Positions 6,719 through 29,403 of a DNA stretch of 35,677 nucleotides are shown one piece after another; position 1 is the stretch's first letter, and every line of letters starts with the position of its first letter. This stretch comes from Gammaproteobacteria bacterium (GTDB lineage: Bacteria > Pseudomonadota > Gammaproteobacteria > Steroidobacterales > Steroidobacteraceae): positions 1-35,677 of the forward strand of contig JASHTA010000315.1 in NCBI GenBank assembly GCA_030040795.1, read 5' to 3'. Under the pieces are notes generated by a model. That model saw only the letters and a list, made by a program, of their open reading frames with translations, was not told the origin of the DNA and did no database searches. The translations under genes were made by a program, and so were the position numbers.

Positions 6719-6722
6719 CGCC
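6711..6722. repeat. 12-bp perfect palindrome at a convergent gene junction
   Basis: GGCGCTAGCGCC contains the TAG stop of the secreted-protein gene and lies just before the stop of the convergent gene. It could fold only as a 4-bp stem, so it is at best a weak bidirectional pause or terminator. Confidence 0.4.
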
Positions 6723-6724
6723 AT

Positions 6725-7432
6725 TCAGGGCACGCTTGGCGTGCGATCACTTCGGTCGGCGTTCAAATCGTCGCCGGTGAATGGAGGCGAGAGGGCCGGT
6801 GGCGGCTTGCATACCGGGTGCGGCAGTGGCCGCGGAATGCCTGTGATGAACACCGGCAAGTGCGCCGGGTCGCGATTGGTGTAATAGCAACGATCGCTGA
6901 TCCAGGTGATGGTCTCGCCGTCGTCGAAGCGCCACGACTCCCCCCGCCGATGTCGCCGATTCTCCGGCCGTGGTAGGTCCAGTCCTTTGGGGATAGACCC
7001 GAAGGCGCGAAGTAACGCCTTCCGGTCTTCACGCGCGAGCACATCGCGTGCGGCACGCTCGGCTTCCGCCGTCCAGTCGATCGGAGGTGTCGCGGGAGTG
7101 ACGGTGATGGGTGACTCTCGAGAGTTCGGCGGCAAGAGCGGCAAAACGGAGGGGAGCGCAAGGCGCGGCGCCAGCAGGCGCAGAAGTGAGACCGCAGAGT
7201 GTGGGCGACCTGGGTTCGTGGGGCGCTCGGAACGCTCGGACGAATGCGATGGCTCATCGATGAACGCCAGGATCATCGCCCGTTGCGCGACCGATGAATT
7301 GGGCTCAGGACTGTGGTCCATGCCCACCGACAGCAATGCGAGGAAGGCGATCTGGACCAGGGCGGCCCCGCCCAGCGCGACCCAGTGGACACGTCGATCG
7401 GTCAAGCCCGGCTCGGAGTGCATCGCAATCAA
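6725..7432 (-). CDS. Single-TM periplasmic protein, last gene of the MacB-type operon
   Basis: A protein of 235 residues with one N-terminal membrane helix (about 17-37), a proline/serine-rich linker and a conserved-looking C-terminal domain: DWTAEAERAARDVL (about 116-129), WISDRCYYTNRD (cysteine near 181) and a final PHPVCKPP (cysteine near 206), possibly a disulfide pair. From memory, similar uncharacterised proteins occur in Xanthomonadaceae-like genomes. The gene begins 34 bp after the FtsX permease stop, on the same strand, so it is probably co-transcribed and may work with the exporter in the periplasm. An in-frame ATG three codons inside is an alternative start. Function unknown. Confidence 0.65.
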   Translation of the reverse strand: MIAMHSEPGLTDRRVHWVALGGAALVQIAFLALLSVGMDHSPEPNSSVAQRAMILAFIDEPSHSSERSERPTNPGRPHSAVSLLRLLAPRLALPSVLPLLPPNSRESPITVTPATPPIDWTAEAERAARDVLAREDRKALLRAFGSIPKGLDLPRPENRRHRRGESWRFDDGETITWISDRCYYTNRDPAHLPVFITGIPRPLPHPVCKPPPALSPPFTGDDLNADRSDRTPSVP

Positions 7433-9863: not shown

Positions 9864-9888
9864 CGCGGCTCGGATTCTTGAGCGCGCG

Positions 9889-10569
9889 CTACGCCGCGAG
9901 CAGCGTCTCGCTCACGACGCGTCCGTCGAGCAGCTTCACGGTGCGCTTGGCGCGCGCGGCGTGCACGAGGGAGTGGGTCACCATCACGACCGTCGTGCCC
10001 GCGGCATTGAGGCCCGCGAGCAGATCCATCACGGCGGCGCCGTTTTCCGTATCGAGGTTGCCCGTCGGCTCGTCGGCCAGGATCAGCTTCGGCTCCGCAA
10101 CCAGGGCACGGGCGATGGCCACGCGCTGCTGTTGGCCTCCGGAGAGCTGCTGCGGCAGGTGGCGAGCGCGATGCGCAATGCCCACCCGTTCGAGGGCCGC
10201 AGCGATACGCCGCTTGCGGTCGCCGCGGGAGACGTGGCGGTAGAGCAGGGCGACCTCAACGTTCTCGGCGACATTGAGATCGTCGATGAGATTGAAGCTC
10301 TGGAAGATGAATCCCACACCCGTACGCCGCAGTGCGGTGAGCCTCTGCTCGGAATACTTCGAGACCTCCTCGCCGAAGAACCAGTAGGCCCCGCCGTCGG
10401 GGCTGTCGAGGAGCCCGAGAATGTTGAGCAGCGTCGACTTGCCGCAGCCGGAGGGTCCCATGATCGCGACGAACTCGCCGGCGGCCACCTCGAGCGATAC
10501 GTCATCGAGCGCGCGGGTCTCGACCTCGGTGGTGCGATAGGTCTTGCGGATGCTTTCGAGCCTCAGCAT
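9889..10569 (-). CDS. MacB/LolD-type ABC transporter ATP-binding protein
   Basis: A protein of 226 residues, the usual length for this family. All ATPase motifs are intact: Walker A GPSGCGKST (38-46), Q-loop Gln90 in FIFQSFNL, signature LSGGQ (142-146), Walker B LILADE with catalytic Glu167, and H-loop His199 in VMVTHS. A good AGGAG site lies 8 nt before the ATG. It sits between the adaptor gene (18 bp upstream) and the permease gene (25 bp downstream), so it energises that permease. It is also the only MacB-class ATPase in the window and is therefore the obvious candidate partner for the orphan FtsX permease at 16407-18890. Confidence 0.93.
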   Translation of the reverse strand: MLRLESIRKTYRTTEVETRALDDVSLEVAAGEFVAIMGPSGCGKSTLLNILGLLDSPDGGAYWFFGEEVSKYSEQRLTALRRTGVGFIFQSFNLIDDLNVAENVEVALLYRHVSRGDRKRRIAAALERVGIAHRARHLPQQLSGGQQQRVAIARALVAEPKLILADEPTGNLDTENGAAVMDLLAGLNAAGTTVVMVTHSLVHAARAKRTVKLLDGRVVSETLLAA

Positions 10570-10587
10570 GTCGTGCTCCTGCCGTTC

Positions 10588-11856
10588 TTACTTCTCAAGA
10601 TCGATCCGATCGATGCGCTCCAGGCCGGAATAGTCGGAGATGATGACCCGGTCGCCGACCGCAAGACCCCCGAGGATCTCGACTTGCTCGGCGTTGCGGC
10701 GACCGAGCTTGATTCGGCGCCGCCGCGCCGAGCGGCCGTCCCGGGTCAGCACGAATGCCCAGTCGCCGCCGGTACGCTCGAGGAAGGCGCCTGCGGGAAG
10801 GACCGTCCCCACCTGGTCGGCGCCGAGCGATAGTCGGCCCTGCACAGTCTGTCCGGGCAGCAGCCCCTTCGGCTCGGCGCCCTGGAACGACAAGTCGATC
10901 GTGAACGTACCGTCCTTCACCTCGGGATAGACGCGGGTCACCTGGGCCGAGAAGGTCTGCTCGCCGATATCGACCTGCGCAGTCTGGCCGACCGCGACGC
11001 GCTGCAAGTAGTACTCGTCCACGTCCGCCGAGAGCTTGTAACCGGTCTGCGGGGTGATCTCGGCGAAGCGCTCGCCGCGATTGCGATTCTCGCCGACTTT
11101 CAGGTCCATCGAGGTGAGCCGACCGGTCACGGGCGCCCGCACCGTGAGGTTGTCGAGCTTGCCGTGCGTGATCTTGAGGTCTTGCTGAAGCTTGTCGATC
11201 TGGCTCTCGATCTCCGGCAGCTGGCGCACGCGCAGCTCCTCCTGCCTCTCGTTGCTCTGCTCTTGCAGGGGCCGCAGCTTCAAGTCGTAATTGAGCTCGT
11301 CCTGCACGGAGTCCAGGGCTTCGACCGGCTCGAGCGTCCGCCCGAGCGCCTTGCGCCGAGCGTAGGAGCGCTGCAGCCGGATGATGTTGTAGTCGATCGT
11401 CGCGAGCGCCTTCTGGTTCGATACTCGATTCTGCTCGAGCTGCGTCTGATAGGACTGGAGCTCCGTGATCGACTCGATCATCCTCGCCTCGCGGTCGAGC
11501 ACGTCGAGCTCGAGCTCCGTATTGCTGAGCTCGACGAGCGGCTGGCCCTTCGTCACCATGTCGCCCGCTTGCGCGAGAATGCGCTCCACGCGGCCGCCCT
11601 CCATCGCATCGAGATAGACCGTTTGAAGTGCCTGGACCGTCGCGTGGAGGGGAACGAAGTCGTGAAACGTCCCCCGCGCCACCGTCGCGACGGTGACATT
11701 GGCGAGCGGCATGCGGACGCTGCGCTCCGCCGTTCCGAAAAGCAGAACGACCGTCGTGAATCCGAGAGCGACGACTGCCGCACCGACACCGAGCTGTATC
11801 ACGTGGCGCTTGCGCCACCACGGCAGCGAGATCGGCCGATCCATCGCGAAGCTCAT
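10588..11856 (-). CDS. HlyD-family periplasmic adaptor of the MacB-type exporter
   Basis: A protein of 422 residues when read from the ATG at 11856, which has GGAAGA about 8 nt upstream; a longer frame continues upstream without a better start. It has one membrane helix (about 19-41), a lipoyl-like half motif (EGGRVERILAQAGDMVTKGQ, about 86-105), a long antiparallel coiled coil (about 115-225), the second lipoyl half (VRAPVTGRLTSMDLKVGE), and beta-barrel and membrane-proximal domains. This is the layout of adaptors that join an inner-membrane exporter to an outer-membrane channel; no channel gene is in this operon, so a TolC-like protein encoded elsewhere is implied. It is the first gene of adaptor-ATPase-permease-6725 and is divergent from the response regulator. 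Confidence 0.88.
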   Translation of the reverse strand: MSFAMDRPISLPWWRKRHVIQLGVGAAVVALGFTTVVLLFGTAERSVRMPLANVTVATVARGTFHDFVPLHATVQALQTVYLDAMEGGRVERILAQAGDMVTKGQPLVELSNTELELDVLDREARMIESITELQSYQTQLEQNRVSNQKALATIDYNIIRLQRSYARRKALGRTLEPVEALDSVQDELNYDLKLRPLQEQSNERQEELRVRQLPEIESQIDKLQQDLKITHGKLDNLTVRAPVTGRLTSMDLKVGENRNRGERFAEITPQTGYKLSADVDEYYLQRVAVGQTAQVDIGEQTFSAQVTRVYPEVKDGTFTIDLSFQGAEPKGLLPGQTVQGRLSLGADQVGTVLPAGAFLERTGGDWAFVLTRDGRSARRRRIKLGRRNAEQVEILGGLAVGDRVIISDYSGLERIDRIDLEK

Positions 11857-11876
11857 TGCAGTCTTCCGCGCGCCAT
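11853..11876 (-). CDS. Possible 7-codon leader peptide coupled to the HlyD adaptor gene
   Basis: ATG at 11876 opens a seven-codon frame (MARGRLQ) whose TGA overlaps the adaptor ATG (ATGA). The leader ATG sits 7 nt after the TACACT hexamer of the shared 14-bp element, exactly where the orphan permease has its GTG. It could be translated from a leaderless transcript and couple translation to the adaptor. No peptide evidence is possible from sequence. Confidence 0.3.
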   Translation of the reverse strand: MARGRLQ

Positions 11877-11880
11877 CCCA

Positions 11881-11894
11881 CGCAGTGTAAGTCA
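11881..11894 (-). promoter_or_regulatory. 14-bp element upstream of HlyD operon (copy 1)
   Basis: On the - strand this reads TGACTTACACTGCG and is identical to 18895-18908. TACACT within it is a 4/6 match to the -10 consensus. It could be a core promoter or a binding site for the adjacent response regulator. Confidence 0.5.
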
Positions 11895-11944: not shown

Positions 11945-11967
11945 AAGCCTCTCGATGGCCGAGGCTT
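11945..11967. repeat. Inverted repeat AAGCCTC-N9-GAGGCTT
   Basis: A perfect 7-bp dyad with a 9-nt spacer, near the centre of the divergent region. It is a candidate operator for the Fis-type response regulator; a hairpin role is less likely so far from either start. Confidence 0.5.
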
Positions 11968-12024
11968 GTCCGGAATCGAACACCCTCTGAGCCCCGCGCA
12001 GCGCAGGCGGCCGCCCCGCAAATG

Positions 12025-12055
12025 CGAGTGCGTGGTGATGGTTGTCACGCGCTCG
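12025..12055. repeat. Stem-loop just upstream of the response regulator start
   Basis: CGAGTGCGTG and CACGCGCTCG pair over 10 bp with one G-U wobble around an 11-nt loop, ending 22 nt before the ATG at 12078. It could be an operator or a 5'-leader hairpin. No clear Shine-Dalgarno lies between it and the start. Confidence 0.45.
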
Positions 12056-12077
12056 GCGGGGGTCGTACGCTCGTCGA

Positions 12078-12620
12078 ATGGACGGCATCGCGGTTCTTGT
12101 CGTGGAGGATGATCCGGATGTTCGCCGCTCCGCGCGCGTCGCGCTCGCTCCTCATACGGAGCGCGTGGAGGAAGTCGAGTCGGCTGCGGAGCTGGAGAGC
12201 GTTCTCGCTGCCGGCGCCTTCAACGTCGTGCTGCTGGATATGAATTTCGTCGCCGGCGAGCGCAGTGGCGCGGCGGGTCTCGATGCGCTCGGCCGCATCC
12301 GGAGCTTCGATCCGACGATCGCCGTCGTGTTGATGACGGCCTACGGCGGTGTCACTCTCGCGGTGGACTCGCTCAAGCGGGGCGCGGCCGACTTCGTTCT
12401 GAAGCCCTGGCGCAACGACAAGCTCGTAGCGGCAATCGGGGCCGCTGCGGAGGTCACCCGCTCGCGGCGTGCGACGGAGACGCTGCAGCTCGCGGCGCTC
12501 GAGCGGAGCGCCATCGAGCGTGCGCTCGCGCGCTTCCAGGGAAACATCTCCTCGGCGGCTTCGGCGCTCGGCTTGAGCCGCGCGGCCCTCTATCGGCGCA
12601 TGGCGAAGCATGGACTCTAG
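12078..12620 (+). CDS. Response regulator: receiver plus Fis-type HTH, no AAA+ domain
   Basis: A protein of 180 residues from the ATG at 12078 (the frame extends upstream to a TTG at 12042, which has no receiver homology). The receiver domain has the acidic pair at 11-12, phospho-acceptor Asp54 in VVLLDMNF, Thr87 and Lys109. A linker of about 25 residues leads to a Fis/NtrC-type helix-turn-helix (GNISSAASALGLSRAALYRR, about 152-171). NtrC-class regulators carry a sigma-54 AAA+ domain between these parts; it is absent here, giving a PrrA/RegA/ActR-like layout. The HTH itself looks like the NtrC-type end. Its stop overlaps the kinase start by 11 bp. It likely controls the divergent export operon. 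Confidence 0.85.
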   Translation: MDGIAVLVVEDDPDVRRSARVALAPHTERVEEVESAAELESVLAAGAFNVVLLDMNFVAGERSGAAGLDALGRIRSFDPTIAVVLMTAYGGVTLAVDSLKRGAADFVLKPWRNDKLVAAIGAAAEVTRSRRATETLQLAALERSAIERALARFQGNISSAASALGLSRAALYRRMAKHGL

Positions 12621-14055
12621 TCTCGCCGGCACGAACCGGCTCGCGCTCGCCGTGGCCTGGCGAGCTCTCCTCATCGGGGCGCTCGCGTTTCTCGTCTTTC
12701 GCATTCTCACCGGCACTCACCTCTACGCCACCGCATTGCTCGTCCTCGTTGTCGCAGGCCTCATCGCCGCGGATCTGTCGCAGGTCATCGGCAGGATCGT
12801 GAGAAGCGCGGAGCGCGACCTGGAGAGGCTGGTGGCTGCGGTCAGCGATTCGCCGGCCGGGACCGGAGCGAGCCCATACCCGGGACAATCGGCTCGCCCC
12901 TTCGATCAGGCTGCAGCCCTTCTCACTGCAGCGCGCATGGAAAGGCAGGTGCAGCTCGAGTACGTCCAGACGTTGCTCGATACCGTCGCGGCGGCATTGA
13001 TCGTCGTCGAGCCGGACGGGCGCGTGACTTTTGCAAACCGCGTTGCCCGTGCTCTGAGCGCCGGACCGGCTCAGCGGCTCGGCGATGTGCCGGCGATCGG
13101 AGACTCCGCCGCCCCCGCTCTGCTCGCCCTTCGCGCGGGAGCTCGGGAGATCATCTCGACGGCTGACGGCCAACGGATGTTCGTCTCGGTCTCGCACTTT
13201 ACGATTCCCGGGCGCGAGCCGCGGCGGCTCATCGCTCTGCAACGTATCGCGGGCGATCTCGATGCCGTGGAGCTGAAAGCCTGGCAAGACATGGCGCATG
13301 TGCTCGCGCACGAGATGATGAACTCGCTCACGCCCATCGCATCTCTGTCCGAGAGTCTGGAGGTCTTGCTCAAGACGGCCGAGCGCGCGGGGCCGGCCGA
13401 TGTCGCGCACACCAATGAGGATCTCGTCACGGCGCTCGAGGCCATCAAGCGGCGCAGTCTCGGTCTCATGGATTTCGTCGAGCGCTATCGGGCCGTCGCG
13501 GAGCTTCCGCGTCCGAGACTGCAACAGGTGCAGATGCACGCGCTGGTGCGTGCAGTGAGCCACCTCATGGGCGCAAGGCTCGACCAAAGCGGTGTCGACT
13601 ACCGCATCCTCGTGGAACCCGAGGATCTCTGCGCGGATGCCGATCCGCAGCTTCTGGAGCAGGCCCTCATCAACTTGCTGCGCAACGCGGCGGACGCGGT
13701 CGCGGGAGTCGAGAAGCCTCGCATAGAGGTCTCCTGCCGCGCGCGCGACGAGCAGGTGGCGATCGAGGTCTCGGACAACGGCATGGGCGTGCCGGAGGAC
13801 CAGCGCGATCAAATCTTCGTGCCGTTCTTCACGACGAAGGCCGGCGGCTCCGGCATCGGATTGAATCTGGCGCGCCAGATCGCGCTGAGCCACGGCGGGC
13901 GGCTCGAGCTCCGCGCGAATCCTCTGCGGGGATGCGTGTTCACGTTGCTGCTGCCGGCCGCGCGGCCGGTGGCGAGGGGAGGGCAGGAGCTGACAGGCAT
14001 GGCGGAGGCGGCTCCAAGGGCAACTGGCGCGGGCATTCTCCCTTCCCCCTTGTAA
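12610..14055 (+). CDS. PAS-containing sensor histidine kinase
   Basis: A protein of 481 residues starting inside the end of the response-regulator gene, so coupled to it. There are two N-terminal helices (about 14-32 and 37-55) with only a very short loop between them, so sensing is probably within the membrane or by the PAS-like domain (about 115-205, DGRVTFANRVARALS). The phospho-acceptor is His234 in HEMMNSLTPI. The ATPase has the N box LINLLRNAADAV (about 354-365), G1 SDNGMGVP, F box FVPFFTTK and G2 GSGIGLNLA. The HEMxNSLTPI box is typical of NtrB/NtrY-like kinases found beside MacB exporters in Xanthomonas-like bacteria and Bacteroidetes (from memory). Confidence 0.88.
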   Translation: MDSSLAGTNRLALAVAWRALLIGALAFLVFRILTGTHLYATALLVLVVAGLIAADLSQVIGRIVRSAERDLERLVAAVSDSPAGTGASPYPGQSARPFDQAAALLTAARMERQVQLEYVQTLLDTVAAALIVVEPDGRVTFANRVARALSAGPAQRLGDVPAIGDSAAPALLALRAGAREIISTADGQRMFVSVSHFTIPGREPRRLIALQRIAGDLDAVELKAWQDMAHVLAHEMMNSLTPIASLSESLEVLLKTAERAGPADVAHTNEDLVTALEAIKRRSLGLMDFVERYRAVAELPRPRLQQVQMHALVRAVSHLMGARLDQSGVDYRILVEPEDLCADADPQLLEQALINLLRNAADAVAGVEKPRIEVSCRARDEQVAIEVSDNGMGVPEDQRDQIFVPFFTTKAGGSGIGLNLARQIALSHGGRLELRANPLRGCVFTLLLPAARPVARGGQELTGMAEAAPRATGAGILPSPL

Positions 14056-14099
14056 AGCGGGTAGGGCGTATGTTATATCTTACGATATGTTTTACGATA
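14050..14099 (+). promoter_or_regulatory. PadR autoregulatory promoter/operator overlapping its start codon
   Basis: TTACGATA occurs twice, at 14080-14087 and 14092-14099, a 12-bp-spaced direct repeat. ATATC-TTAC-GATAT (14075-14088) is an inverted repeat. The ATG at 14087 lies within both. A TTGTAA (-35-like, 14050) and TATATC (-10-like, 14074) are 18 bp apart and place the transcription start at or next to the ATG. This AT-rich patch stands out in GC-rich DNA. PadR/YqjI regulators are known to bind AT-rich dyads at their own promoters. Confidence 0.6.
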
Positions 14100-14752
14100 A
14101 TGACTTCTCTCATCGGGACCCCTCCTGGATCTACTGGATGGGGCGGCATCACGGCGGCCGGGGCTTCGGGCATTCCGCGGGCGGATTCATGGGCGGGTTC
14201 GGGTTCGGGCGGGGCGGCATGCACTTTCGCACGGGGCGCAAGCTCGCCGCTGCGGACCTGCAGCTCGTCATCCTGGCGCTGCTCGCGGACAGGCCGAGCC
14301 ACGGCTACGAGCTCATCAAAGCGGTGGAGGAGCGATCTGGCGGCTTCTACAGCCCGAGCCCGGGGGTCATCTATCCGGCCCTCACGTACCTCGAGGAGAT
14401 CGGCCACGTGACCGTGGAGCCCGAAGGCACGAAGAAGCTCTACCACCTCACCGAGGCAGGCCGCGAGCATCTCGCGCAGCATCGCGCGACGGTCGACGCC
14501 ATGCTGGCCGAGCTGGAGCGCATCGGTCGCAAGATGGAGCATGTCCGCCGGGTCTTCACCGGCGAGGCGCGCGCGGGCGAGGAACGGGGGGGCGAGGACG
14601 AGGGTTTCGATCCCCGCCGCTCGAGAGAGCTGCACGCCGCGCGTCATGCTCTGAAGATGGCGCTGTTCGAGAAGCGAGGGAGCTCGCGCGAAGAGGTGAA
14701 GCGGATTGCGGAGATCCTCAAGCGCGCCGCCGAGGAGATCCGCGGCAAGTGA
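14087..14752 (+). CDS. PadR family transcriptional regulator, YqjI-like
   Basis: A protein of 221 residues. The N-terminal 50 residues are Gly/His/Phe-rich (HHGGRGFGH, His at 9, 21, 22, 29 and 46). The winged helix spans about 58-128 with the PadR signature SHGYELIKAVEE, SPSPGVIYPALTYLEE and KKLYHLTEAGREHL. The C-terminal part (about 165-221) is helical and charged, as in PadR dimerisation domains. E. coli YqjI has a metal-binding His/Cys-rich N-terminal extension before the same domain; here histidines but no cysteines are present, so metal sensing is possible but unproven. The start codon has no Shine-Dalgarno and overlaps the operator, suggesting a leaderless transcript. Two methyltransferases follow and are its likely operon partners. 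Confidence 0.88.
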   Translation: MFYDNDFSHRDPSWIYWMGRHHGGRGFGHSAGGFMGGFGFGRGGMHFRTGRKLAAADLQLVILALLADRPSHGYELIKAVEERSGGFYSPSPGVIYPALTYLEEIGHVTVEPEGTKKLYHLTEAGREHLAQHRATVDAMLAELERIGRKMEHVRRVFTGEARAGEERGGEDEGFDPRRSRELHAARHALKMALFEKRGSSREEVKRIAEILKRAAEEIRGK

Positions 14753-14805
14753 GCTCGCATCCTCGGCGGCCGATGCAAGCTCACGGTACAGGAGTCGATT
14801 CGAGA

Positions 14806-15447
14806 ATGTCCCAGCCCGCAGGTCCGATCCTCGATTCCCGGGTGAACTCAGTCATCGCCCGGATGCAGGCTGCGCGAAACTATCCGTCGAACGGCGGTCC
14901 GCGCCGCAACCGGGAGGCCCGCGATCCCAATTTGTATGCGGAGTACGGCTTCTCGATCTATCCCGAGCAGGGCGACCTCATCTATCTGCTGTGCCGGGCG
15001 CAGCGCGCCACGCGAGTCGTCGAGTTCGCGACCTCGCTCGGCTTCTCGACCCTGTATTTCGCGGCCGCCGTCAGGGACAATGGCGGCGGAATCGTCATCG
15101 GCTCCGAGCTCGTGCCGCAGAAGGTTCAGGCCGCGCGGCGCAATCTCGCGGACGCCGGGCTTGCGGACTACGCGCAGATCCGTCAAGGAGATGCGCGCGA
15201 GACGCTGCGGGACCTCGGCGGACCGGCTGATTTCGTGCTGATAGACGGGTGGCCTGGCGATGACGGACCGTCGCTTGCGCTTCAGGTGATGAGGATCGTC
15301 GCGCCCCAGGTGCGCACCGGCGGTCTCGTCATGAACGACAACGCGGAGGACGACTACCTGGAATATGTGCGCAATCCCGCGAACGGCTTTCGCTCGCTGT
15401 CGCTGCCGCTCAAGGGCGGGACCGAGCTCTCCGTGAAAGTGGCCTGA
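14806..15447 (+). CDS. SAM-dependent O-methyltransferase (class I), copy 1
   Basis: A protein of 213 residues read from the ATG at 14806, with AGGAG 11 nt upstream. A GTG at 14749 overlapping the PadR stop would add 19 residues and cannot be excluded. It has a Rossmann methyltransferase fold: motif I VVEFATSLGFS (about 72-82, with Ala where the family often has the first Gly), IVIGSELVPQKVQAARRNL (acidic ribose-binding position), RQGDARETL, FVLIDGWPGDD (metal/substrate region) and GLVMNDN. Relatives include YrrM/caffeoyl-CoA O-methyltransferase-like enzymes that methylate catechol-like hydroxyls. The substrate is unknown. It is a paralogue of the next gene. Confidence 0.82.
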   Translation: MSQPAGPILDSRVNSVIARMQAARNYPSNGGPRRNREARDPNLYAEYGFSIYPEQGDLIYLLCRAQRATRVVEFATSLGFSTLYFAAAVRDNGGGIVIGSELVPQKVQAARRNLADAGLADYAQIRQGDARETLRDLGGPADFVLIDGWPGDDGPSLALQVMRIVAPQVRTGGLVMNDNAEDDYLEYVRNPANGFRSLSLPLKGGTELSVKVA

Positions 15448-15506
15448 GCGCCGGATTGACTGCCGCGGGCCCATTGACCGACCAACGTTACCGCAAGATC
15501 AGATCC

Positions 15507-16166
15507 ATGACATCCCTTCAATCGCCGGCCGTGCGGGCCGTACTCGACCGGCTTTACGCCGAAGCGGAGCGGAACGACGAGGAGGTGCTGCCGCGCGTGC
15601 GGGCGGCGGCCGAGCGCCTCGGGGGCTCCTACGACGACCGCAAGGTTGCGCATCTGCTCGACGATGCCTTCATTCCGGTATGCCCGGAGGTGGGCCAGCT
15701 GCTCTACGTGCTCGTCCGCACGCGAAGGCCGAGGGTCGTCGTGGAGTTCGGAGCCTCGTTCGGGCTCTCGGCGATCCACCTGGCCGCGGCGCTGCGCGAC
15801 AACGGCGAAGGCAGGCTGATCACGACCGAGCTGAATGCATTCAAGGCCGGCCGGGCGATAGAGCACTTTCGCCAGGCCGGCCTTGCCGATCTCATCGACT
15901 TGCGGCAAGGCGATGCGTTCGAGACGCTCGAGGGTGTGCGAGGCATCGACTTCCTGATGCTCGATGGCTGGAAGAGCCTTTATCTGCCGCTGCTGCAGAG
16001 GCTCGAGCCCGCGCTCGGCCCGGGCTGCCTCGTCGCGGCGGACGACATCAACCTGATGCAGGATCTGTTGAAACCCTATCTCGCGTACGTGCGAGACCCC
16101 AAGAACGGGTACACCTCGTGCGAGGTGCCGATCGACGACGGAGTGGAAGTGTCGCTGCGCGGATGA
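15507..16166 (+). CDS. SAM-dependent O-methyltransferase (class I), copy 2
   Basis: A protein of 219 residues from the ATG at 15507, whose N-terminus (MTSLQSPAVRAVLDRLYAEA) matches the usual family start; a TTG at 15456 is an in-frame alternative. Motif I is VVEFGASFGLS (about 78-88), intact, followed by LITTELNAFKAGRAIEHF, RQGDAFETL, DFLMLDGWKS and CLVAADDINL. It carries a central insertion (EEVLPRVRAAAERLGGSYDDRKVAHLL, written here only by its ends: residues about 24-51) relative to copy 1. The pair share the order of all motifs and arose by tandem duplication. They lie 59 bp apart, downstream of the PadR regulator. Confidence 0.85.
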   Translation: MTSLQSPAVRAVLDRLYAEAERNDEEVLPRVRAAAERLGGSYDDRKVAHLLDDAFIPVCPEVGQLLYVLVRTRRPRVVVEFGASFGLSAIHLAAALRDNGEGRLITTELNAFKAGRAIEHFRQAGLADLIDLRQGDAFETLEGVRGIDFLMLDGWKSLYLPLLQRLEPALGPGCLVAADDINLMQDLLKPYLAYVRDPKNGYTSCEVPIDDGVEVSLRG

Positions 16167-16429
16167 GGCTTTGTCAGAAGGCCCGCGGATTTCGCGCCGG
16201 GAACATCGAATCTCAGCCATCCGCCAAGGCTCACCTCGATCGCCGGATCGTGAGTGGAAGGACCGGCGCGCAGTCTCAATGTGAGAGCGAACCGATAGGT
16301 GTGGGAGAGCCCGGGGAAGGGTAAGTAACTCACGCTCGTCCTCGCGCTCAGGAACGAGACAAGGAGAATGACGGCAGCCGCGAAGACTGCGAGCCGCAGG
16401 CGCGGCCTATTCGTAGTGGAGCGCGGCAA
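16076..16429 (-). CDS. Doubtful small membrane protein downstream of the orphan permease
   Basis: A - strand frame with a TTG at 16429 (or an ATG at 16459, inside the permease gene) would encode about 117 residues with one strong hydrophobic helix (LAVFAAAVILLVSFL) followed by a YRFALTLRLRAG beta-like segment. It overlaps the methyltransferase 3' end by about 90 bp. In its favour, it fills the otherwise empty 16167-16406 gap and mirrors the single-TM gene that follows the other FtsX permease. Against it, the start is poor and the C-terminal third reads like an antisense shadow. It could be a decayed gene remnant. Confidence 0.28.
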   Translation of the reverse strand: MPRSTTNRPRLRLAVFAAAVILLVSFLSARTSVSYLPFPGLSHTYRFALTLRLRAGPSTHDPAIEVSLGGWLRFDVPGAKSAGLLTKPHPRSDTSTPSSIGTSHEVYPFLGSRTYAR

Positions 16430-18890
16430 TGGGCTTGGCCTGTGCCACTCGGAGCGCATGTCCCACGACGGTCGCCCACGCGATGAGCAGCGCGATCGCT
16501 CCTGCGGCGAGAAAGGCGGCGGCGCTCAGATCGATGTGATACGCGAATCCCCGCAGCCAGTGGCGCATCGCGAGGAACACGACCGGCCATGCGACGAGGT
16601 TCGCCCACAGCACAGGCTTCGTGAACTGCCAGAGGAGCAGGCGGACGATGTCGCTACGCTCCGCGCCCATCGCCTTGCGCACGCCGATCTCCTTCGTGCG
16701 TCGCTCGGCGGTGAAGGCCGACAAGCCGAAGAGCCCGAGGCAGGCGATCAGCACCGCAATGCCGGAGAAGCCGGTGAACACGTCCCCGCGGCGCGTGATA
16801 TCGAGATAGACGTCCTGCATGTGCTGGTCCACGAAGAATCCTGTCATCGGCTTGGTATTTCCCGTATCTCTCCACAGGCTGCGAATGGCTGCCAGGGTCT
16901 CCGGAATCTCGTGTCCGGCGAGCTTGACGTTGAGAATGTCGAAAGAATTCGAGTAGACGACATAGAAGATCGGCGGAATCTGCTTGGCGACCGAGCTGAA
17001 GGAGAAGTCGCGAACGACGCCGATCACCTCGAGCGGTCGGCCGCCGACGAACAGCTGTTTGCCGATCGCTGCTTCGGGCGATGTGAACCCGGCGCGGTGA
17101 ACGCCTGCCTCGTTGAGCACGATCCGGCCCTCTGGCGGGGACGCCGCATCAGGCAACGCTGAGGGGTGCAGGAGCAGAGTGGCCAGATCGGGCGCCGCGG
17201 CTGCCGGCGCATCCCCGGGATGGCTGCGGGAGAAGAATCGCCCGGCGAGTGGGCGGAGCCCATACAGCTCGAAGAACCCGTAATCGACAGAGATGCCGTC
17301 TATCGGCACGTACGTGCCGTCGCGGAGACGCAGACTCCAATGGGATTCCTCGGCGAGGCTCAGTGCGCCGGACCACGCACACGCCGCCGCTCGCACTCCC
17401 GGCAGAGCGCGAACCCGGTCGGGAAAGGCGCCGTAGCAAGCGCCACGCCGAAGTCCACCGGGCCCGGAAGCGAAGCCGATGGAGACCACGAAGACCTGGT
17501 CCTTGTCGACCCGTAGCCCTTCGTTCAGGGCGTAATGAACCTGCCGATAGATGACCACGGTCGATATGCAGAGGCCGATGAGCACGGCGAACTGCAGCGT
17601 CACCAGAATCGCCCGCACGCGCCCCGATCCCGGCGTGGCGTGGGCGGCGCTCTTGAGGACCGCTGCCGGAGCAAATGCCGACAGGACGAGCGCAGGGTAG
17701 GTGCCCGCAAGCGCTGCCACCAGCAACGTCGCTGCAATCAGCGTGCCGGCGACGGTGGGATCGTGCCAGTACCCAAAGCCGATGTGGCGGCCGAGGAAGG
17801 CGTTGAGCTGCGGCAGCAGCACCTCGACCAGTCCCACTGCGATGAGCATCGAGAGCGCCGCATAGACGGCGGTCTCGCCGATGAACTGGGCGACCAGCTG
17901 CCGGCGCACGGCGCCCGCAGCCTTGCGTATTCCCACCTCGACCGCGCGCCGCGCGGCGCGCGCCGTCATGAGATTGATGAAGTTGAAGCTGGCGACCAGG
18001 ATGACGAGGAGTCCGACGAGCGAGACGGCATAGATCGTGGACCAGTCCCCCGTCGGCTTCATCGACTGCTCCGTGAACGCAGTAACGTGAAGCTCATCGA
18101 CCCGGACGAGTGGGAGCGACAGGTTGTAGTGCCTCGTCATGGCAGGCATGCGATGAGCCAGAAACGCAGGGATTTCTCGCCGCAGGCGCTCGATGGAGAC
18201 GCCTGGCGCAAGGCGCAAGTACGTGTAGACGAGATCGTCCGTGTCGGCGTGATTCGGGTCCTTGTCCAGCTTCGCTAGCGCGGAGAACGAGCCGCGTCCG
18301 GAGGCGATCGCTTGAATGTCGAGATGACTATTCGGCGGTAGATCCTCGAGTACCGCCCTCACCCGCATCGGGTATCGCCGGTCGATCTGGATCACCTCCC
18401 CGATCGGATTGTCGCGACCGAAGTACTTGCGAGCGAGGCTTCGGGTGAGGACGATGCCATCGGGCGCCTGCAACGCCGTTCGCAGGTCACCCGCGACCGC
18501 CCGCAACCGCAGGAGATCGAAGATATTCGGATCGGCCCAGTACAGCTTCTCGTCGGCCTCGACGTTTCCGTGGCGGAGCGTCCGTTGGTCCGGGCAGAGT
18601 CGCGCAACGGCCTCGATCCCGGGAAAATCGAGCTTCAGAAATCCGGCGATCGAAGCATCGATCGTGGGCGTCCAGATGGCGGACTGGCCGGGAATCGTGA
18701 AGAGCTCGGAAGCGAGATATGTGCGCTGGTGATCGGGGAGGAAGCGGTCGTAGCTCAGCTCATCGCGGACGAAGAGCGCGATCAGGATCGCCGCGGCGAA
18801 GCCGGCGGCGAGCCCCGCGACGTTGATGCCGACGTAGAGTCGGTCTCGCATCAGATTGCGCAGCGCCGCGGCCAGATAGTTTCGGAGCAC
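16407..18890 (-). CDS. MacB/FtsX-type ABC permease (two-module), without its own ATPase
   Basis: A protein of 827 residues, a clear paralogue of the permease at 7467-9863: both begin MLRNYL.AALRNL and share the same two-module plan. It has TM1 (about 19-41), the first periplasmic core, an FtsX module (about 295-415, with EVGIRKAAGA), another helix (about 435-460), the second core and a C-terminal FtsX module (about 700-827, with EIGVRKAMGA). Both coupling-helix motifs are intact, so it should bind an ATPase, yet none is adjacent. The GTG start is set by alignment with the paralogue. It lies 7 nt after a TACACT hexamer, with no room for a ribosome-binding site downstream of a normal transcription start. 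Confidence 0.87.
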   Translation of the reverse strand: MLRNYLAAALRNLMRDRLYVGINVAGLAAGFAAAILIALFVRDELSYDRFLPDHQRTYLASELFTIPGQSAIWTPTIDASIAGFLKLDFPGIEAVARLCPDQRTLRHGNVEADEKLYWADPNIFDLLRLRAVAGDLRTALQAPDGIVLTRSLARKYFGRDNPIGEVIQIDRRYPMRVRAVLEDLPPNSHLDIQAIASGRGSFSALAKLDKDPNHADTDDLVYTYLRLAPGVSIERLRREIPAFLAHRMPAMTRHYNLSLPLVRVDELHVTAFTEQSMKPTGDWSTIYAVSLVGLLVILVASFNFINLMTARAARRAVEVGIRKAAGAVRRQLVAQFIGETAVYAALSMLIAVGLVEVLLPQLNAFLGRHIGFGYWHDPTVAGTLIAATLLVAALAGTYPALVLSAFAPAAVLKSAAHATPGSGRVRAILVTLQFAVLIGLCISTVVIYRQVHYALNEGLRVDKDQVFVVSIGFASGPGGLRRGACYGAFPDRVRALPGVRAAACAWSGALSLAEESHWSLRLRDGTYVPIDGISVDYGFFELYGLRPLAGRFFSRSHPGDAPAAAAPDLATLLLHPSALPDAASPPEGRIVLNEAGVHRAGFTSPEAAIGKQLFVGGRPLEVIGVVRDFSFSSVAKQIPPIFYVVYSNSFDILNVKLAGHEIPETLAAIRSLWRDTGNTKPMTGFFVDQHMQDVYLDITRRGDVFTGFSGIAVLIACLGLFGLSAFTAERRTKEIGVRKAMGAERSDIVRLLLWQFTKPVLWANLVAWPVVFLAMRHWLRGFAYHIDLSAAAFLAAGAIALLIAWATVVGHALRVAQAKPIAALHYE

Positions 18891-18894: not shown

Positions 18895-18908
18895 CGCAGT
18901 GTAAGTCA
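18895..18908 (-). promoter_or_regulatory. 14-bp element upstream of orphan FtsX permease (copy 2)
   Basis: Reads TGACTTACACTGCG on the - strand, identical to 11881-11894. Including the next seven bases up to the start triplet, 18 of 21 positions agree, with GTG here aligned to ATG there. It could be a promoter for a leaderless transcript or a regulator site. Confidence 0.5.
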
Positions 18909-18963: not shown

Positions 18964-19004
18964 GGTGCGGCCGGTGCGGCCGTTCGGAATCGGACAATGG
19001 CACC

Positions 19005-19448
19005 TCAGGCGGGCTGCGGGGCGCTGACCTCGCCGGCACGTCCGACCTTGATGTGCGCGATCTTGCCGTCGCGCAACCTGTAGTACACGAGCACCCGCAC
19101 GCGAACGAACTCCCCCTTGCGCAACGGGGCGACGATGAAATTCGGAGCATCGGCGGCGGCCGTGAACTGCGAGGTGATATCCGCGGCGATCCCGTCGTCG
19201 TCGGCGATGAGATGATGCAGCGTGAGAGACTCGCGCACGGTCTTGAACATCTCGCGATAGAAATCAAGGATGCCTTGCTTGCCGCGCAAGACGAGGGTGC
19301 TGAGCTCGCAGACGACATCGTCGGTGTAGTACTGGCTGAAGCGCTCGAAGTCGGCATTGCTGAAGGCGCGTGTGTAGTCGAGGTAGGCCTGCCGCTGCTC
19401 GAGCGTGCCGCCGAGGCGCGCGGCCGGCTTGGATGCGCCGGCGTTCAT
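19005..19448 (-). CDS. NTF2-like/SnoaL-like protein
   Basis: A protein of 147 residues. The core (LEQRQAYLDYTRAFSNADFE, then YYTDDVVCEL, GKQGILDFYREMF, and a C-terminal FVRVRVLVYYRLRDGKIAHI) is the cone-shaped NTF2/SnoaL fold, in which a helix-lined pocket binds a small hydrophobic ligand or catalyses aldol or isomerase chemistry. No obvious catalytic Asp/His pair can be assigned without alignment. Its ATG overlaps the SlyD stop (TGATG), so it is translated with slyD. The substrate is unknown. Confidence 0.78.
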   Translation of the reverse strand: MNAGASKPAARLGGTLEQRQAYLDYTRAFSNADFERFSQYYTDDVVCELSTLVLRGKQGILDFYREMFKTVRESLTLHHLIADDDGIAADITSQFTAAADAPNFIVAPLRKGEFVRVRVLVYYRLRDGKIAHIKVGRAGEVSAPQPA

Positions 19449-19930
19449 CAGTGAGAGTGGCCGCCCGGTCCGTGCACGTGGCCGTGCGAGAGCTCTTCCT
19501 CCGTGGCGTCTCGCACGCCGGTGATCTCCACCTCGAAGTTCAGGTTCTTGCCGGCGAGCGGGTGATTGGCGTCGAGGGTCACCATATCGCCGACAATGCG
19601 CGTGACGGTGACGGTGCGCGGACCTTGAGGGGTCTGCGCGCGCAGCTGCATGCCCACCTTGATGTTGGCGATACCCTTGAGCGACCGGCGTGGAATCTGC
19701 TCGATGAGGGACTGGTCATACACGCCGTAGCCGTCGGCAGGCGCAACCTTCACGGTCAGCTTGTCGCCCGCGCTTTTTCCCTGAAGCTCCCGCTCGAGGC
19801 CCGGGATCAAATTCCCGCGTCCATGCAGATAGCTCAAAGGATCCCCGGACGCCGAGCTGTCGATCACGTCGCCACCGTCGTCGGTCAACGTGTAATGCAG
19901 CGTGACGACGGAGTCCTGCTTGATGGCCAT
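19448..19930 (-). CDS. slyD: SlyD-type FKBP peptidyl-prolyl isomerase/chaperone
   Basis: A protein of 160 residues. The FKBP domain is split by an insert-in-flap domain, as in SlyD: VVTLHYTLTDDGGDVIDSS at the start, GRGNLIPGLERELQGKSAGD, the inserted flap (about 68-130, ending ANHPLAGKNLNFEVEI) and a short tail rich in histidine (GHVHGPGGHSH). E. coli SlyD has a longer His/Cys tail for nickel; here the tail has five histidines and no cysteine, so nickel binding is likely weaker. Cytoplasmic folding helper. A promoter with TTGACG and a 17-bp spacer lies upstream. Confidence 0.9.
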   Translation of the reverse strand: MAIKQDSVVTLHYTLTDDGGDVIDSSASGDPLSYLHGRGNLIPGLERELQGKSAGDKLTVKVAPADGYGVYDQSLIEQIPRRSLKGIANIKVGMQLRAQTPQGPRTVTVTRIVGDMVTLDANHPLAGKNLNFEVEITGVRDATEEELSHGHVHGPGGHSH

Positions 19931-21433: not shown

Positions 21434-22906
21434 CTAGCGAAGCAGCGAGGTGTTCCAGCCGCCGCCCAGCGCTTCCATCAGCGCGATGCTCGCCGTGAAC
21501 CGGTCGAGCTGCACCGTCAACGCCGTCTCCTCGGCGTCGAGCCGGGTGGTTTGAGCGGTGATGACGCTGCTGTACGGCTCCGTGCCCGCCTTGTACTGCT
21601 CGAGCGTCAGCGACTCGTCCTCTCTCGAGGCTTTGACGAGCTGATCCTCCAGCACGGCCTGCTTCTCGAGGACACGCAGCGTCACGAGCTGGTCCTCGAC
21701 CTGCTCGAAGTCCGAGAGGACCGTCTGCCGGTAGTTCGCGACGCTCTCCCGGTAAGACGCCCGCGCCTGTGCGACCTGCGCCAACCGTGCCCCGCCGTTG
21801 AACACGGTCTCGGCGAGAGACGGTCCGAACGACCAGATCTGATTCGACGCCCGAATGAGCTTGCTCAGCGTGGTCCCCTCGTACTCGTCCGAGGCGGAGA
21901 GCGTGAGGCTTGGGAAGAACGCGGCGATGGCGACGCCGATCTGCGCATTGGCGGCAGCGACCTCGCGCTCGGCCTGGGCGATGTCCGGCCGCCGCTGCAG
22001 GAGATCCGAGGGTACCCCGGGGGGCACGGTCGGAATGACGCTCGCCAGCATCGCGGGCTTCAAGGAGAGCTCGCTCGGCTGTTTCCCGATGAGTACGGCG
22101 ATGGCATGCTCGAGAGTCGAGCGCTCGATCTGCGCATTGACCTCCTGCGCCTCGGCGCTGAGCAGCTCCGTTTGGGCGCTCAAGATATCGGCCTTGTAGG
22201 CGACACCGTCCTTGTAGCGGGCCTGGGTGATGTTGAGGGCCTTCTGGTCCGCCGCGACGATGTCGGTCAGCAGGAATTGCAGCTGGTCCTGAGAGCGCAG
22301 CTCGAAGTAGTCGGTGGCGAGGTCGGCTTGAGCGGTCAATTCGGTCGTAGCCAGGGCGGCGGCGCTCGCCTGCGCCGAGGCCTTCTCGCTCTCGACCGTG
22401 CGGCGTGTCTCTCCCCAGATGTCGAGGCTCCAGTTCGCCGTGGCCGACACCGTGTTCAACGTCTGGGTCAACGGGCCGCCCAAGCTGCCGGATGAACCGG
22501 GGACGGTGGTGCCGAAGGTGGAAGACGAGCCGAGATTCTCCACGGAGCGCTCGCGGGATCCGCTCACGGAAATGCTGGGGAAGAAGCTCCCCTCGGCCTC
22601 TCGGACGAGCGCGCGAGCCTCATCCACCGCTTGCGCGGCCGCCTTGACGTTCTCGTTGGAGACGACGACCTGGCTCTCGAGCTGGTTGAGCACGTCGTCG
22701 TTGAACATCTGCCACCAGGGCCCCCGGGTGAGCGCGTCCGCGGGCTGGCTCGGCTTCCAGCCGTCGACCTCCTTGTAGCTCGCCGCGGTCGGCACGACCG
22801 GCCGCTTGTAGTTGGGGCCGACGGCGCACCCTGTCACGACCAGCGCCGTCAGGGCGAGAACGAGCCCTCGGGAGAGCGGAGTGCCGGATCCGACGCAGCC
22901 GCTCAT
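21434..22906 (-). CDS. NodT/OprM-family outer-membrane efflux lipoprotein
   Basis: A protein of 490 residues from the ATG at 22906, which overlaps the mdtC stop (ATGA). A lipoprotein signal ends in LVVTGC, so the mature N-terminal Cys is lipidated. CAVGPNYKRPVVP is the classical NodT/OprM beginning. Two outer-membrane efflux protein repeats follow, each with a long helical hairpin (EARALVREAEGSFFPSISVSG; AAANAQIGVAIAAFFPSLTLSA), and PSDLLQRRPDIAQAEREV is a family hallmark. It is the trimeric channel that completes the MdtABC pump. E. coli mdtABC has no such gene and uses TolC; having one in the operon makes this locus self-contained. Confidence 0.92.
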   Translation of the reverse strand: MSGCVGSGTPLSRGLVLALTALVVTGCAVGPNYKRPVVPTAASYKEVDGWKPSQPADALTRGPWWQMFNDDVLNQLESQVVVSNENVKAAAQAVDEARALVREAEGSFFPSISVSGSRERSVENLGSSSTFGTTVPGSSGSLGGPLTQTLNTVSATANWSLDIWGETRRTVESEKASAQASAAALATTELTAQADLATDYFELRSQDQLQFLLTDIVAADQKALNITQARYKDGVAYKADILSAQTELLSAEAQEVNAQIERSTLEHAIAVLIGKQPSELSLKPAMLASVIPTVPPGVPSDLLQRRPDIAQAEREVAAANAQIGVAIAAFFPSLTLSASDEYEGTTLSKLIRASNQIWSFGPSLAETVFNGGARLAQVAQARASYRESVANYRQTVLSDFEQVEDQLVTLRVLEKQAVLEDQLVKASREDESLTLEQYKAGTEPYSSVITAQTTRLDAEETALTVQLDRFTASIALMEALGGGWNTSLLR

Positions 22907-25900
22907 ACGCCCACCTGCGCGCTCGGCTCGCCGGAGGCAAGCCGTGGAGGTGCCCACTTCGCCCGATTCTTGTGCGAGGCGGGATGGACGCAGAGATAGA
23001 CGACCGGCGTCGTGTAGAGCGTCAGCAGCTGGCTCACGATGAGTCCACCGACGATGGCGACGCCGAGGGGGCGGCGCATCGCAGTGCCTTCTCCATAGGC
23101 GAGAGCGAGCGGCAACGCGCCCGCGATGGCCGCGCAGGTGGTCATCATGATCGGGCGGAAACGCAGCTTGCAGGCGCGGGCGATGGCGGCGACCGGGTCG
23201 AGGCCGAGCTTGCGCTCCCCGTCGAGCCCGAAGTCCACCAGCATGATCGCATTTTTCATGACGATGCCGATCAGCATGATGATGCCGAGGAAAGAGACGA
23301 GGTCGAGCTCCTCGCCCGTCACGATCAGCGCGAGCAGCGCGCCGAGTCCGCCCGAGGGAATCGTCGAGAGGATGATGAGCGGATGCGCGAAGCTCTCATA
23401 CAGCATGCCGAGCACGACGTAGATCGCGAGTATCGCCGCGAGGAGCATGAGCGGCAGCTGGTTCGAGTTTTGCTGGAAGAGGCGCGCCGTGCCGTAGGTG
23501 CTTCCCTGGACGGAGGTTGGAACGTGGATCCGGTTCATGGTTCTTTGGATTGCCGTGAGCGCTTCGCCGAGCGACTCGCCCGCCGGCAGATTGAAGGAGA
23601 AGGAGGTGGAGGCGGAGTTCCCGGTATGGTTGACGCTCACCGGCGTCGTACCGATGTCGAAATGGCTGAAGGCGGAGAATGGAATCACGGTCTCGGCGCT
23701 GATGCTGACCGCCGAGCCGGTAGAGGCGTTGCCCCGTCCGGCATTGGCGAGAGAATTGGCGGCCGCATTGCGCGCCAGGTCGCTCGCGACGGCCGTGCTC
23801 GATAGGCTCGTGGCGCCGGGCGTGTTGAACTTCGTCGTGCCGGCGACCGCCTGCGTGAGCTGGGTGCCGCTCACCGCACCCCCGGCCGTGCTGATGTAGA
23901 GATTCTTCAGCGTGTCCGGGTTCTGCCAGAACTGGGGTGCCACCTCCATCACGACGTGGTACTGCTGGGGACTGTAGGGATTGTAGATGGTCGAGACCTG
24001 TGCCTGGGCGAATGCGTCGTCGAGCGAGCTGTCGATCTGCGCTTCGCTCAGGCCCAGGCGATAGGCCGTGTTGCGGTCGACGATCAGGTTCGCCTCGAGG
24101 CCGCCAGGCTGCAGGTCCGTGTCCACGTCGGTGATTTCAGGCACGTCCTGCAGCGCGAGTTGGAGCTTCTCGGACCAAGTCCTGAGCTCGGTCAGATCGT
24201 CGCCGAGCAGCGTGTACTGGTACTCCGAGTTGGCGGACCGGCCGCCGCCCCCGCCACCGATGTCCTGCTGCGATTGCAGGAACGTGCGCACGCCGCTCAC
24301 TTGAGCCAGCTCGGGCCGCAGGCGATCGATCACCTGGTCGGCCGAGGCGGTCCGCTCGCTCAGCGGTTTGAGCGTCACGTCGACATTCGCGCTGGTTCCA
24401 TTGCCTCCGAAGAAATTGCCCCCGCCCACCGAACCGGTCACGCTCTCCACGGCGGGATCCGCCTGGATGATGCGCGCGACCTCCTGAAGCTTGCCCTTCA
24501 CCAGCTGGAAGGAAGCGGACGGGTCGGCGCGCAGCCCCCCTTGCAGCTGGCCGGTATCCTCCTGCGGAAAGAAGCCCTTGGCCACGGCGACGTACAGATA
24601 GAAGTTGAGAGCGATCACCGTCAGGAGCACGGTGATCGTCAACCGGCGGTGATTGAGAACCCAGACGAGCGTCCTTTCGTATTCTGCGCGCAGCGCGGAG
24701 AAGCTGCGATCGAACAGGCGTGGCCGCGGCGGCGTCCCGGAGGCGGGTTGCGGGTGTCGGCGGTCCCGTCCAAGCAGGCGCGAGCACATCATCGGCGTGG
24801 TCGTGAGCGAGAGGGCGAGCGAGATGAGGATCGCGACCGCGAGGCTGATCGTGAACTCGCCGAACAGGCGGCCGACGATACCGCCGATCAGCTGGAAGGG
24901 AATGAACACGGAGACCAGCGAGAGACTCATCGCGAGCACGGTGAAGCCCACCTCGCGGGCGCCGAACAGCGCGGCCCGCATGCGCGGCATGCCTGCCTCG
25001 ATGTGCCGCGTCGTGTTCTCCATCACGACGATGGCATCGTCCACCACGAACCCGGTCGCGACCGTGAGCGCCATCAGGGAGAAATTGTCGAGCGTGAAGC
25101 CGAACAGGTACATCGCGCCGAAGGTTCCGATGAGCGACACCGGAACCACGACCGCCGGCACATACGCGGCGCGGTGGCTGCCGAGGAAGACGTAGACGAC
25201 CAGCACGACCATCACGACGGAGAGCAGCAGCGTTTCCTCGACCCGGCGCAGGGACTGACGAATTGTGACCGAGCGGTCGGAGGTCACCTTCAGGTCGATC
25301 GGGCCGTTGGTCGCGATGGCCGCCTTGAGCTGCGGCAGTTCCGCCTTGACGGCGTCGACCACGTCGATGACGTTCGCGCCCGGCTGCCTCAATACCTGGA
25401 CGGTGACCGCCGGCTTGCCGTTGTAGATGCCGTACGTTCGGATGTTCGCCGTGGCGCCGTCCTGCATGTCGGTGACCGTCGCGACATCGCCCAGCCTGAC
25501 GTAGGCGCCGTTGCGGCTCGCGATGATGAGGTTTCGATATGCGGTCGCATCGCGCGCGTTGTCGTTTGTGTAGATCTGGTAACGGGTCGGCCCGACATCG
25601 ATGCCGCCCTTCGGCGAATTGGCGTTCGCGTTGGAGATGGCCGCGACGACATCCTGGAGGGCGATGCCGTACTGAGAGAGGGCAAGGGGATTGAGCTCTA
25701 CCCGCACCGCCGGCAACGCGCTGCCGTTGACGTTGACGCCGCCGACACCCTTGATCTGCGCGAGACGCTGGGAGACCACGGCATCCGCGGCGTCGTAGAT
25801 CTGGCCTTGCGTGAGCAAATCGGAGGTCATTGCGATGGTCATGACCGGGAAGTTCGATGTGTTGATCTGGCGGTAGCTCGGGTTCTGCGTGAGGCCGGTC

Positions 25901-26259
25901 GGCAGGTCGGCGTGCGCCGCCTCGATCGCCGCCTCCACGTCGCGCGCGGCGCCGTTGATGTCCCGGTCCAGCCCGAACGTCAGCTGAATGTTCGTCGACC
26001 CCACGGTGCTGGTGGAGGTGATGTCGTTCACGTCGGCGATGGCGCCGAGATGGCGCTCCAGCGGGGTTGCGATACTGCTCGCCATGACCTCCGGACTCGC
26101 CCCGGGGAAGGAATCCGAGACGAAGATGGCCGGAACGTCGATGGGCGGCAGCGAAGCGACCGGCAGCAGGGTAAACGCGGCGGCGCCGGCAGCGGCGATG
26201 CCGAGCGTCAGCAGGATCGTCGCGACAGGCCGCGCGATGAACGGAGCGGAGATGTTCAC
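22903..26259 (-). CDS. mdtC: RND efflux pump inner-membrane protein, MdtC-like
   Basis: A protein of 1118 residues from the GTG at 26259, which overlaps the mdtB stop (GTGA); the start [16 protein letters not shown] matches RND N-termini, and the open frame upstream is antisense-free filler within mdtB. It has the 12-helix RND plan with proton-relay residues: the Asp pair in [12 protein letters not shown] (TM4) and Lys in [11 protein letters not shown] (TM10). It is about 90 residues longer than E. coli MdtC. The excess includes an Ala/Ser/Asn-rich insertion (about 793-860, between STAGGAV and VIPFSAF) and Gly-rich loops ([21 protein letters not shown]). It likely forms a heterotrimer with MdtB. 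Confidence 0.9.
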
Positions 26260-29200: not shown

Positions 29201-29384
29201 CGGAGGTCATCACCTCGGGGCTCGCGCCGGGGTAGAAGGTCTGCACCTCGATCGTCGGATAGTCCACCTCCGGAAGCGCCGAGAGCGGCAGCTGCAGGTA
29301 GGCGATGATGCCGACCGTGAGGATCGCGACCATGAGCAGGGTCGTCGCGACCGGACGCAGAATGAAGAGACGTGAAGGATTCAC
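26256..29384 (-). CDS. mdtB: RND efflux pump inner-membrane protein, MdtB-like
   Basis: A protein of 1042 residues, the normal RND length, from a GTG at 29384 ([19 protein letters not shown], the typical first helix), 19 bp after the adaptor stop. The Asp pair in [12 protein letters not shown] and the Lys in [14 protein letters not shown] (TM10) needed for proton coupling are intact; [15 protein letters not shown] marks the start of the second half. Order and coupling with mdtC support an MdtB/MdtC heteromeric pump. E. coli MdtABC exports bile salts, novobiocin and some beta-lactams; the substrates here are inferred only by family. Confidence 0.92.
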
Positions 29385-29403
29385 GGCGTAGCCTGCGGCC
29401 TGC

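Follow-up and report, generated by a model that had tools for sequence, protein, structure and literature searches.

An orphan two-module MacB/FtsX permease gene of a Steroidobacteraceae genome carries a copy of the promoter of a nearby HlyD-type ABC exporter operon

The gene at positions 16407-18890, here called perm2, encodes an orphan two-module permease and is preceded by the same promoter as the complete HlyD-ATPase-permease operon that lies in the same window, the 35,677-nucleotide contig JASHTA010000315.1 (assembly GCA_030040795.1). Since the promoter is the same in front of both, perm2 is tied to the HlyD exporter, as the sequence-only reading had suggested. We consider it probable that the exporter encoded at 7467-11856 uses perm2 as an alternative permease subunit that is co-regulated by the adjoining response regulator/histidine kinase pair and shares the ATPase and adaptor of the operon in trans. 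The promoter architecture is shared and near-exclusive to the permease family, the orphan permeases have no adjacent ATPase, and relatives carry tandem operons with one ATPase and many permeases. Co-regulation of the orphan permeases with the exporter is strongly supported by promoter sequence; we infer that the exporter ATPase and adaptor would be shared in trans. The features of the locus are listed in Table 1.

Table 1. Features of the exporter operon, its regulators, perm2 and the surrounding genes (positions in the window)
Feature	Position	Strand	Remarks
perm1, permease of the complete exporter operon	7467-9863	-	79% identical orthologue in congener G001
ABC ATPase (DarD/LolD/MacB-type), proposed shared engine	9889-10569	-	96% identical in G001
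HlyD/MacA-type periplasmic adaptor	10588-11856	-	ATG at 11856, start agrees with G001; mechanical ORF reaches 12048
-10 box TACACT of exporter operon	11884-11889	-	+93 from operator start; conserved in G001 (L117)
Exact operator TGTTCGATTCCGGACA of exporter operon	11967-11982	-	HlyD/response regulator divergent intergenic region; one of only two exact copies in G000
Response regulator, REC + Fis-type HTH, without AAA+; proposed operator binder	12042-12620	+	divergent from HlyD
Cognate histidine kinase	12610-14055	+	HATPase_c
PadR regulator, genus backbone, outside exporter	14087-14752	+	found without exporter in G002 and other genera
Two O-methyltransferases, backbone	14749-16166	+	OMT1 14749-15447, OMT2 15456-16166
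perm2, orphan two-module MacB/FtsX permease	16407-18890	-	827 aa, GTG start; 2x MacB_PCD, 2x FtsX, two coupling-helix motifs
-10 box TACACT of perm2	18898-18903	-	+93 from operator start; 7 nt before GTG, leaderless-like
Operator copy TGTCCGATTCCGAACG before perm2	18981-18996	-	1 mismatch to TGTYCG-N4-CGRACA; first base 106 nt before GTG
SnoaL/NTF2-like (19005-19448) and SlyD-type FKBP (19448-19930)	19005-19930	-	upstream neighbours of perm2

The permease gene proposed from the sequence alone is real, with its open reading frame, domains and both coupling motifs present. Its 827 codons contain no internal stop, GC content by codon position is coding-like (0.679/0.464/0.807), and MacB_PCD and FtsX domains were each found in two stretches, with Pfam scores of 108.8 bits against a cut-off of 27 bits and 83 bits against one of 25.5 bits; by these cut-offs perm2 has the domains of a type VII ABC permease (MacB/FtsX superfamily). 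The coupling-helix motifs of its two halves, EVGIRKAAGA and EIGVRKAMGA, were identified in an alignment with all family members. No ABC ATPase gene adjoins perm2 between OMT2 and the SnoaL/NTF2-like gene, and Pfam annotation bore out the earlier description of its neighbours as a methyltransferase and an NTF2-like gene without an ATPase gene alongside. These features support the accompanying expectation that such an orphan, its coupling helices being intact, would need a separate ATPase. Hydropathy and a low-confidence AlphaFold model suggest about eight helices, as compared with a YbbP-like ten-helix permease, the model (from a 4-row alignment) having a pLDDT of 46.9, which is too low for use.

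Identity between perm2 and perm1 is 44.6% over 793 aligned residues, which confirms that the two are paralogues; the MLRNYL start previously taken as a special sign of their kinship is common to the whole family as MLRNYL..ALRNL. By region, identity reaches 76% and 73% in the coupling helices and 62% in the C-terminal FtsX half and is 37-38% in the periplasmic domains, and is thus densest where an ATPase would bind. The source genome, G000, is a 3.93-Mb assembly in 565 contigs that is 77% complete, and the genomes compared with it are fragmented, incomplete assemblies. G000 holds a third full-length relative on a different contig (C202:1460-3913, 46% identity), which is flanked by HipA_C and GDSL lipase genes and is likewise an orphan without an ATPase. 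The window gave no matches to Rfam. Two genes without Pfam matches (219 aa, plus strand; 235 aa, minus strand) lie between TraB and perm1 at 6059-7432 and are absent from G001, where TraB adjoins perm1 (L042). At 21434-30801 the window also carries an RND efflux operon (OMF, two RND pumps, HlyD) with a two-component system downstream, which is unrelated to the perm2 finding.

The 17 bases directly before perm2 emerged from a repeat search as a match to the exporter promoter. The 14-mer TGACTTACACTGCG (18895-18908), which holds the perm2 -10 box, has exactly two copies in the 3.93-Mb assembly, one in front of HlyD and the other in front of perm2. G001 has a single copy, in the promoter of the orthologous HlyD; no copies with one mismatch were found in G000 or G001, and the two-mismatch background resembles that of the reversed-pattern control. 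Comparison of upstream regions revealed a palindrome, TGTYCG-N4-CGRACA, before HlyD, perm2 and the C202 permease gene. Exact copies occur only twice in G000, at the exporter promoter and at C202, the perm2 copy having one mismatch. In G000 as in G001, the distance from the first base of the palindrome is 93 nt to TAYACT and 106 nt to the first start codon, which is that of the permease gene itself at perm2 and C202 and that of a seven-codon ORF at the exporter. A weak TTt at +70 in the column profile lies 17 bp from the -10 box, as in a sigma-70 promoter. A promoter and terminator consensus scan around perm2 returned nothing above chance. The seven-codon ORF (11853-11876, minus strand; MARGRLQ) starts 7 nt after the -10 box, and its stop overlaps the HlyD start as ATGA; G001 has the same layout with a different sequence, MRRRRPQ. 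It may be a leaderless leader peptide with translational coupling.

An operon-type promoter with neither HlyD nor ATPase beside the gene could also mean that perm2 is the remnant of a second, partly deleted exporter operon, which kept its promoter and permease, lost its HlyD and ATPase, and is now drifting or non-functional. It would fit this explanation that no perm2 orthologue was found in congeners G001-G003, the perm2 slot of G001 falling in an assembly gap. We nevertheless regard a remnant as quite unlikely, since the 827-aa frame is intact with coding-like GC by codon position and both coupling motifs kept, and since the -10 box stands 7 nt before the start codon in perm2 and C202 alike, which looks like a finished arrangement. 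The orphan permeases of G187 and G188, which are closely related to each other, also argue against it, as the site is retained at an identical offset in both.

The composite of operator and -10 box (palindrome-N77-TANACT, up to one mismatch) was searched for in 217 family genomes, giving 21 matches, compared with a total of about 5 for reversed-pattern controls. All seven exact matches stand before an exporter operon or an orphan permease (G088, G001, G000 twice, G187 twice and G188), as do 6 of the 14 matches with one mismatch, including perm2 and G194:C642. G000 contains exactly three composites, namely those of the exporter operon, perm2 (one mismatch) and C202 (exact). The orphans of G187 and G188 both carry the composite, and there the longest common substring of orphan and operon promoters is at chance level, so that the link is visible only with the degenerate palindrome; upstream of the orphan at G094:C219 no such site was found. 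The operator, at up to one mismatch, is present at the heads of 20 of 39 gene clusters examined; permuted half-sites gave on average 0.57 and at most 14, the latter from one or more permutations, probably ones almost identical to the motif. At the same threshold it is found at nearly all regulator-linked exporter operons, Asticcacaulis L116 being the exception, and at none of approximately 10 exporter operons without a linked regulator. As operon promoters share ancestry, their mutual likeness is no independent evidence, and the weight is carried by the orphan promoters and by genome-wide exclusivity. The +93 spacing was first noticed by inspection and is therefore a post hoc feature, which leaves room for the view that the shared promoter is a coincidence or a general promoter type; the genome-wide exclusivity, the placement of every exact match in the family at exporter or permease genes and the excess of matches over the reversed-pattern controls make this view scarcely credible.

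The window regulator has only Response_reg and HTH_8 domains and lacks the central sigma-54 activation AAA+ domain that defines the NtrC family (bEBP). Short regulators of this kind (REC and Fis-type HTH only) were found at nine regulator-linked loci, the window included, and form one clade (98/97) that represents a single change on the tree. The promoters of the short-regulator loci, four orphan promoters and that of G194 all have TA[CTG]ACT at +92 to +94 (14/14). No sigma-54 site above shuffles was found in these 14 promoters, those of G000 included, and a sigma-54 reading of the G000 promoters was thereby ruled out. Nine loci with REC-AAA-Fis regulators (PF00158) have sigma-54-like sites that agree at 9 to 11 of 11 positions, and 0 of these 9 have a -10 box at that place. 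Short and long regulators have a similar HTH recognition part (GNIS..A..LGLSR/T.ALYRRM.KHGL), in line with an operator common to both types. Because the short clade is nested among long regulators when the tree is rooted with the outgroup, we infer that the AAA+ domain was lost once in this clade rather than gained in the others. Beside the window, the loci examined for regulator and promoter type were L043, L044, L046-L049, L115, L117, L125, L127, L129, L132, L135, L138-L140 and L145. We lean somewhat towards a reading in which one two-component system controls a single regulon made up of an ATPase/adaptor operon and scattered orphan permeases, the regulator having lost its AAA+ domain once and all sampled promoters of the clade, operon and orphan, being of sigma-70 type with the same operator and a fixed 93-bp spacing; this would be an observable instance of a regulator and its promoters evolving in coordination.

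Relatives usually carry a HlyD-ATPase-permease unit, which is often divergent from a regulator-kinase pair, and in some of them an outer-membrane factor (OMF) gene is linked to the exporter. The number of permeases per ATPase varies from one to two (G050, G001:C52, G078 and G162) or four (G013 and G094). The four tandem permeases behind one ATPase in G013 are 36-42% identical in pairwise comparison, which places the divergence of perm1 and perm2 within the range of permeases that stand behind one ATPase. Regulator-linked ATPases are mostly 78-84% identical to that of the window across genera (e.g., G013, G050, G087 and L115), and the permeases approximately 40-52%. Another arrangement with many permeases was seen at L011 (G000:C429, 1-12804), where single-module MacB/FtsX permeases of about 400-440 aa form an array in one orientation and an ATPase gene stands at the end of the contig.

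Several other LolD/MacB-type ATPases are encoded in G000 (e.g., C504 at 67% and C556 at 51%), and perm2 might be co-regulated with the exporter and yet work with a different ATPase, or serve as an ATP-independent partner such as a sensor subunit or a heteromeric partner of perm1. FtsX-type proteins can be signal transmitters rather than transporters (PMC11627006). We think such a partnership possible though unlikely, as no ATPase other than that of the exporter was found under this promoter, and the intact coupling helices on both halves of perm2 argue for ATPase engagement.

The two permease genes, which are related, share a strand and are separated by 6.5 kb. It had been proposed that a PadR-methyltransferase unit was inserted into an exporter locus, or that the pair reflects a displaced duplication. 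Comparison of synteny does not support the insertion. On a single contig, G002 carries TraB, PadR, OMT2, FKBP and Dps with no exporter genes and no perm2; a 366-aa gene without a Pfam match occupies the exporter slot, and a dehydrogenase, a glutathione transferase and an AAA gene occupy the perm2 slot. PadR-OMT without an exporter is also found in another genus (G042), and no exporter genes were found within 1.5 kb of about 25 other PadR loci sampled outside the genus. It follows from this gene order that PadR-OMT is the backbone and that exporter pieces occupy two slots, one on each side. The tandem related O-methyltransferases (window 14749-16166; L119; L117) are reduced to OMT2 in G002, and the G001 contig stops after OMT1; FKBP and NTF2 overlap in G000, and in L118 (G001:C219, 1256-4877) about 3.6 kb with a 702-aa gene without Pfam matches, followed by an extra NTF2-like gene, lie between them.

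The permease tree rejected a recent duplication. It gives perm1 as its sister a permease from a different genus (G050, 52%), with 100% support, and in AU tests on an 18-row LG+G4 tree a genus-level clade of perm1, its G001 orthologue and perm2 was rejected (p-AU 6.6e-5). Taken together with the PadR-OMT of G002 and G042, this makes both recent duplication and insertion very improbable. The test did not reject the same clade with the G050 sister added (p-AU 0.36), so that a displaced duplication of far greater age, deep in the tree, is possible. An orthology of perm2 with the second tandem permease of G050 was rejected (p-AU 0.0013), and perm2 and the C202 permease as sisters were neither rejected nor established (p-AU 0.53).

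In the mechanism that we propose for perm2 as an alternative subunit, the kinase would sense a signal, and the short regulator would bind the palindrome approximately 98 bp upstream of the start site. The pair would then activate RNA polymerase together at three identically laid-out promoters, those of the HlyD-ATPase-perm1 operon, perm2 and the C202 permease, each with a palindromic operator whose first base is 93 bp from TAYACT and with a weak -35. Regulator binding and promoter activity are predictions from sequence, and the system is presumably a MacAB-TolC-like efflux or export pump. The orphan permeases would recruit the ATPase of the operon via their two coupling helices, each two-module permease being a fused dimer that works with two ATPase copies, as in YbbAP, and would also use the HlyD adaptor of the operon and an outer-membrane factor. 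One engine could in this way serve several permeases with differing periplasmic domains, giving a wider set of exported substrates.

Orphan duplicated permeases are annotated in many genomes without a known partner. Here orphans are connected with a particular ATPase and adaptor by a promoter signature and not by gene order; partners could be assigned in this way more generally, and ATPase sharing can be put to a direct test. Regulators with and without AAA+, whose sigma-54 or sigma-70 promoters have one operator in common, also provide a natural series for the rewiring of a sigma-54-dependent regulon to sigma-70. The protein families themselves are known; the open-access papers that could be searched yielded no description of regulon-linked orphan permeases or of a matched sigma-54/sigma-70 promoter series.

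Among known systems, the ADOP family (TIGR03434, 'acidobacterial duplicated orphan permease') likewise consists of two-module MacB_PCD-FtsX permeases and is named for having no adjacent ATPase. TIGR03434 aligns over the full length of perm2 at 237.7 bits, below its cut-off of 622.3; unlike ADOPs, the orphans described here are a minority beside ATPase-linked members, with which they share a two-component-system promoter. In the open-access papers searched, the ADOP phrase was met in one paper, as a RAST annotation only, and ATPase sharing by ADOP-like permeases was not found described. One ATPase energising several ABC importers is experimentally supported for MsmK of Streptococcus suis (PMC4519317), although these are sugar importers and not type VII exporters, and for perm2 such sharing is a proposal. 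The darobactin exporter DarB/DarC/DarD has the same subunit set of two-module permease, HlyD adaptor and separate ATPase. Its models NF038008, NF038010 and NF038007 scored 77 against 700, 168 against 450 and 263 against 375, all below the equivalog cut-offs (for NF038008, the DarB model, 77.4 bits with perm1 and 70.4 bits with perm2), and the present system differs in that no biosynthetic genes were seen and that there are several permeases per ATPase. MacAB-TolC resembles it in its MacB_PCD and FtsX domains, its HlyD/MacA-type adaptor and the OMF gene linked in some relatives, but MacB is a fused ATPase half-transporter that dimerises, whereas the present system has a separate ATPase and a permease in the form of a fused dimer. 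In YbbAP-TesA of E. coli, also a type VII ABC system, a permease chain of two duplicated halves, with an extra helix pair between them in YbbP, binds two ATPases via two coupling helices in a 2:1:1 complex (PMC12646458). Compared by architecture and not by sequence, perm2 shares with it the two duplicated halves and the two coupling helices, but the partner of YbbP is a hydrolase rather than HlyD.
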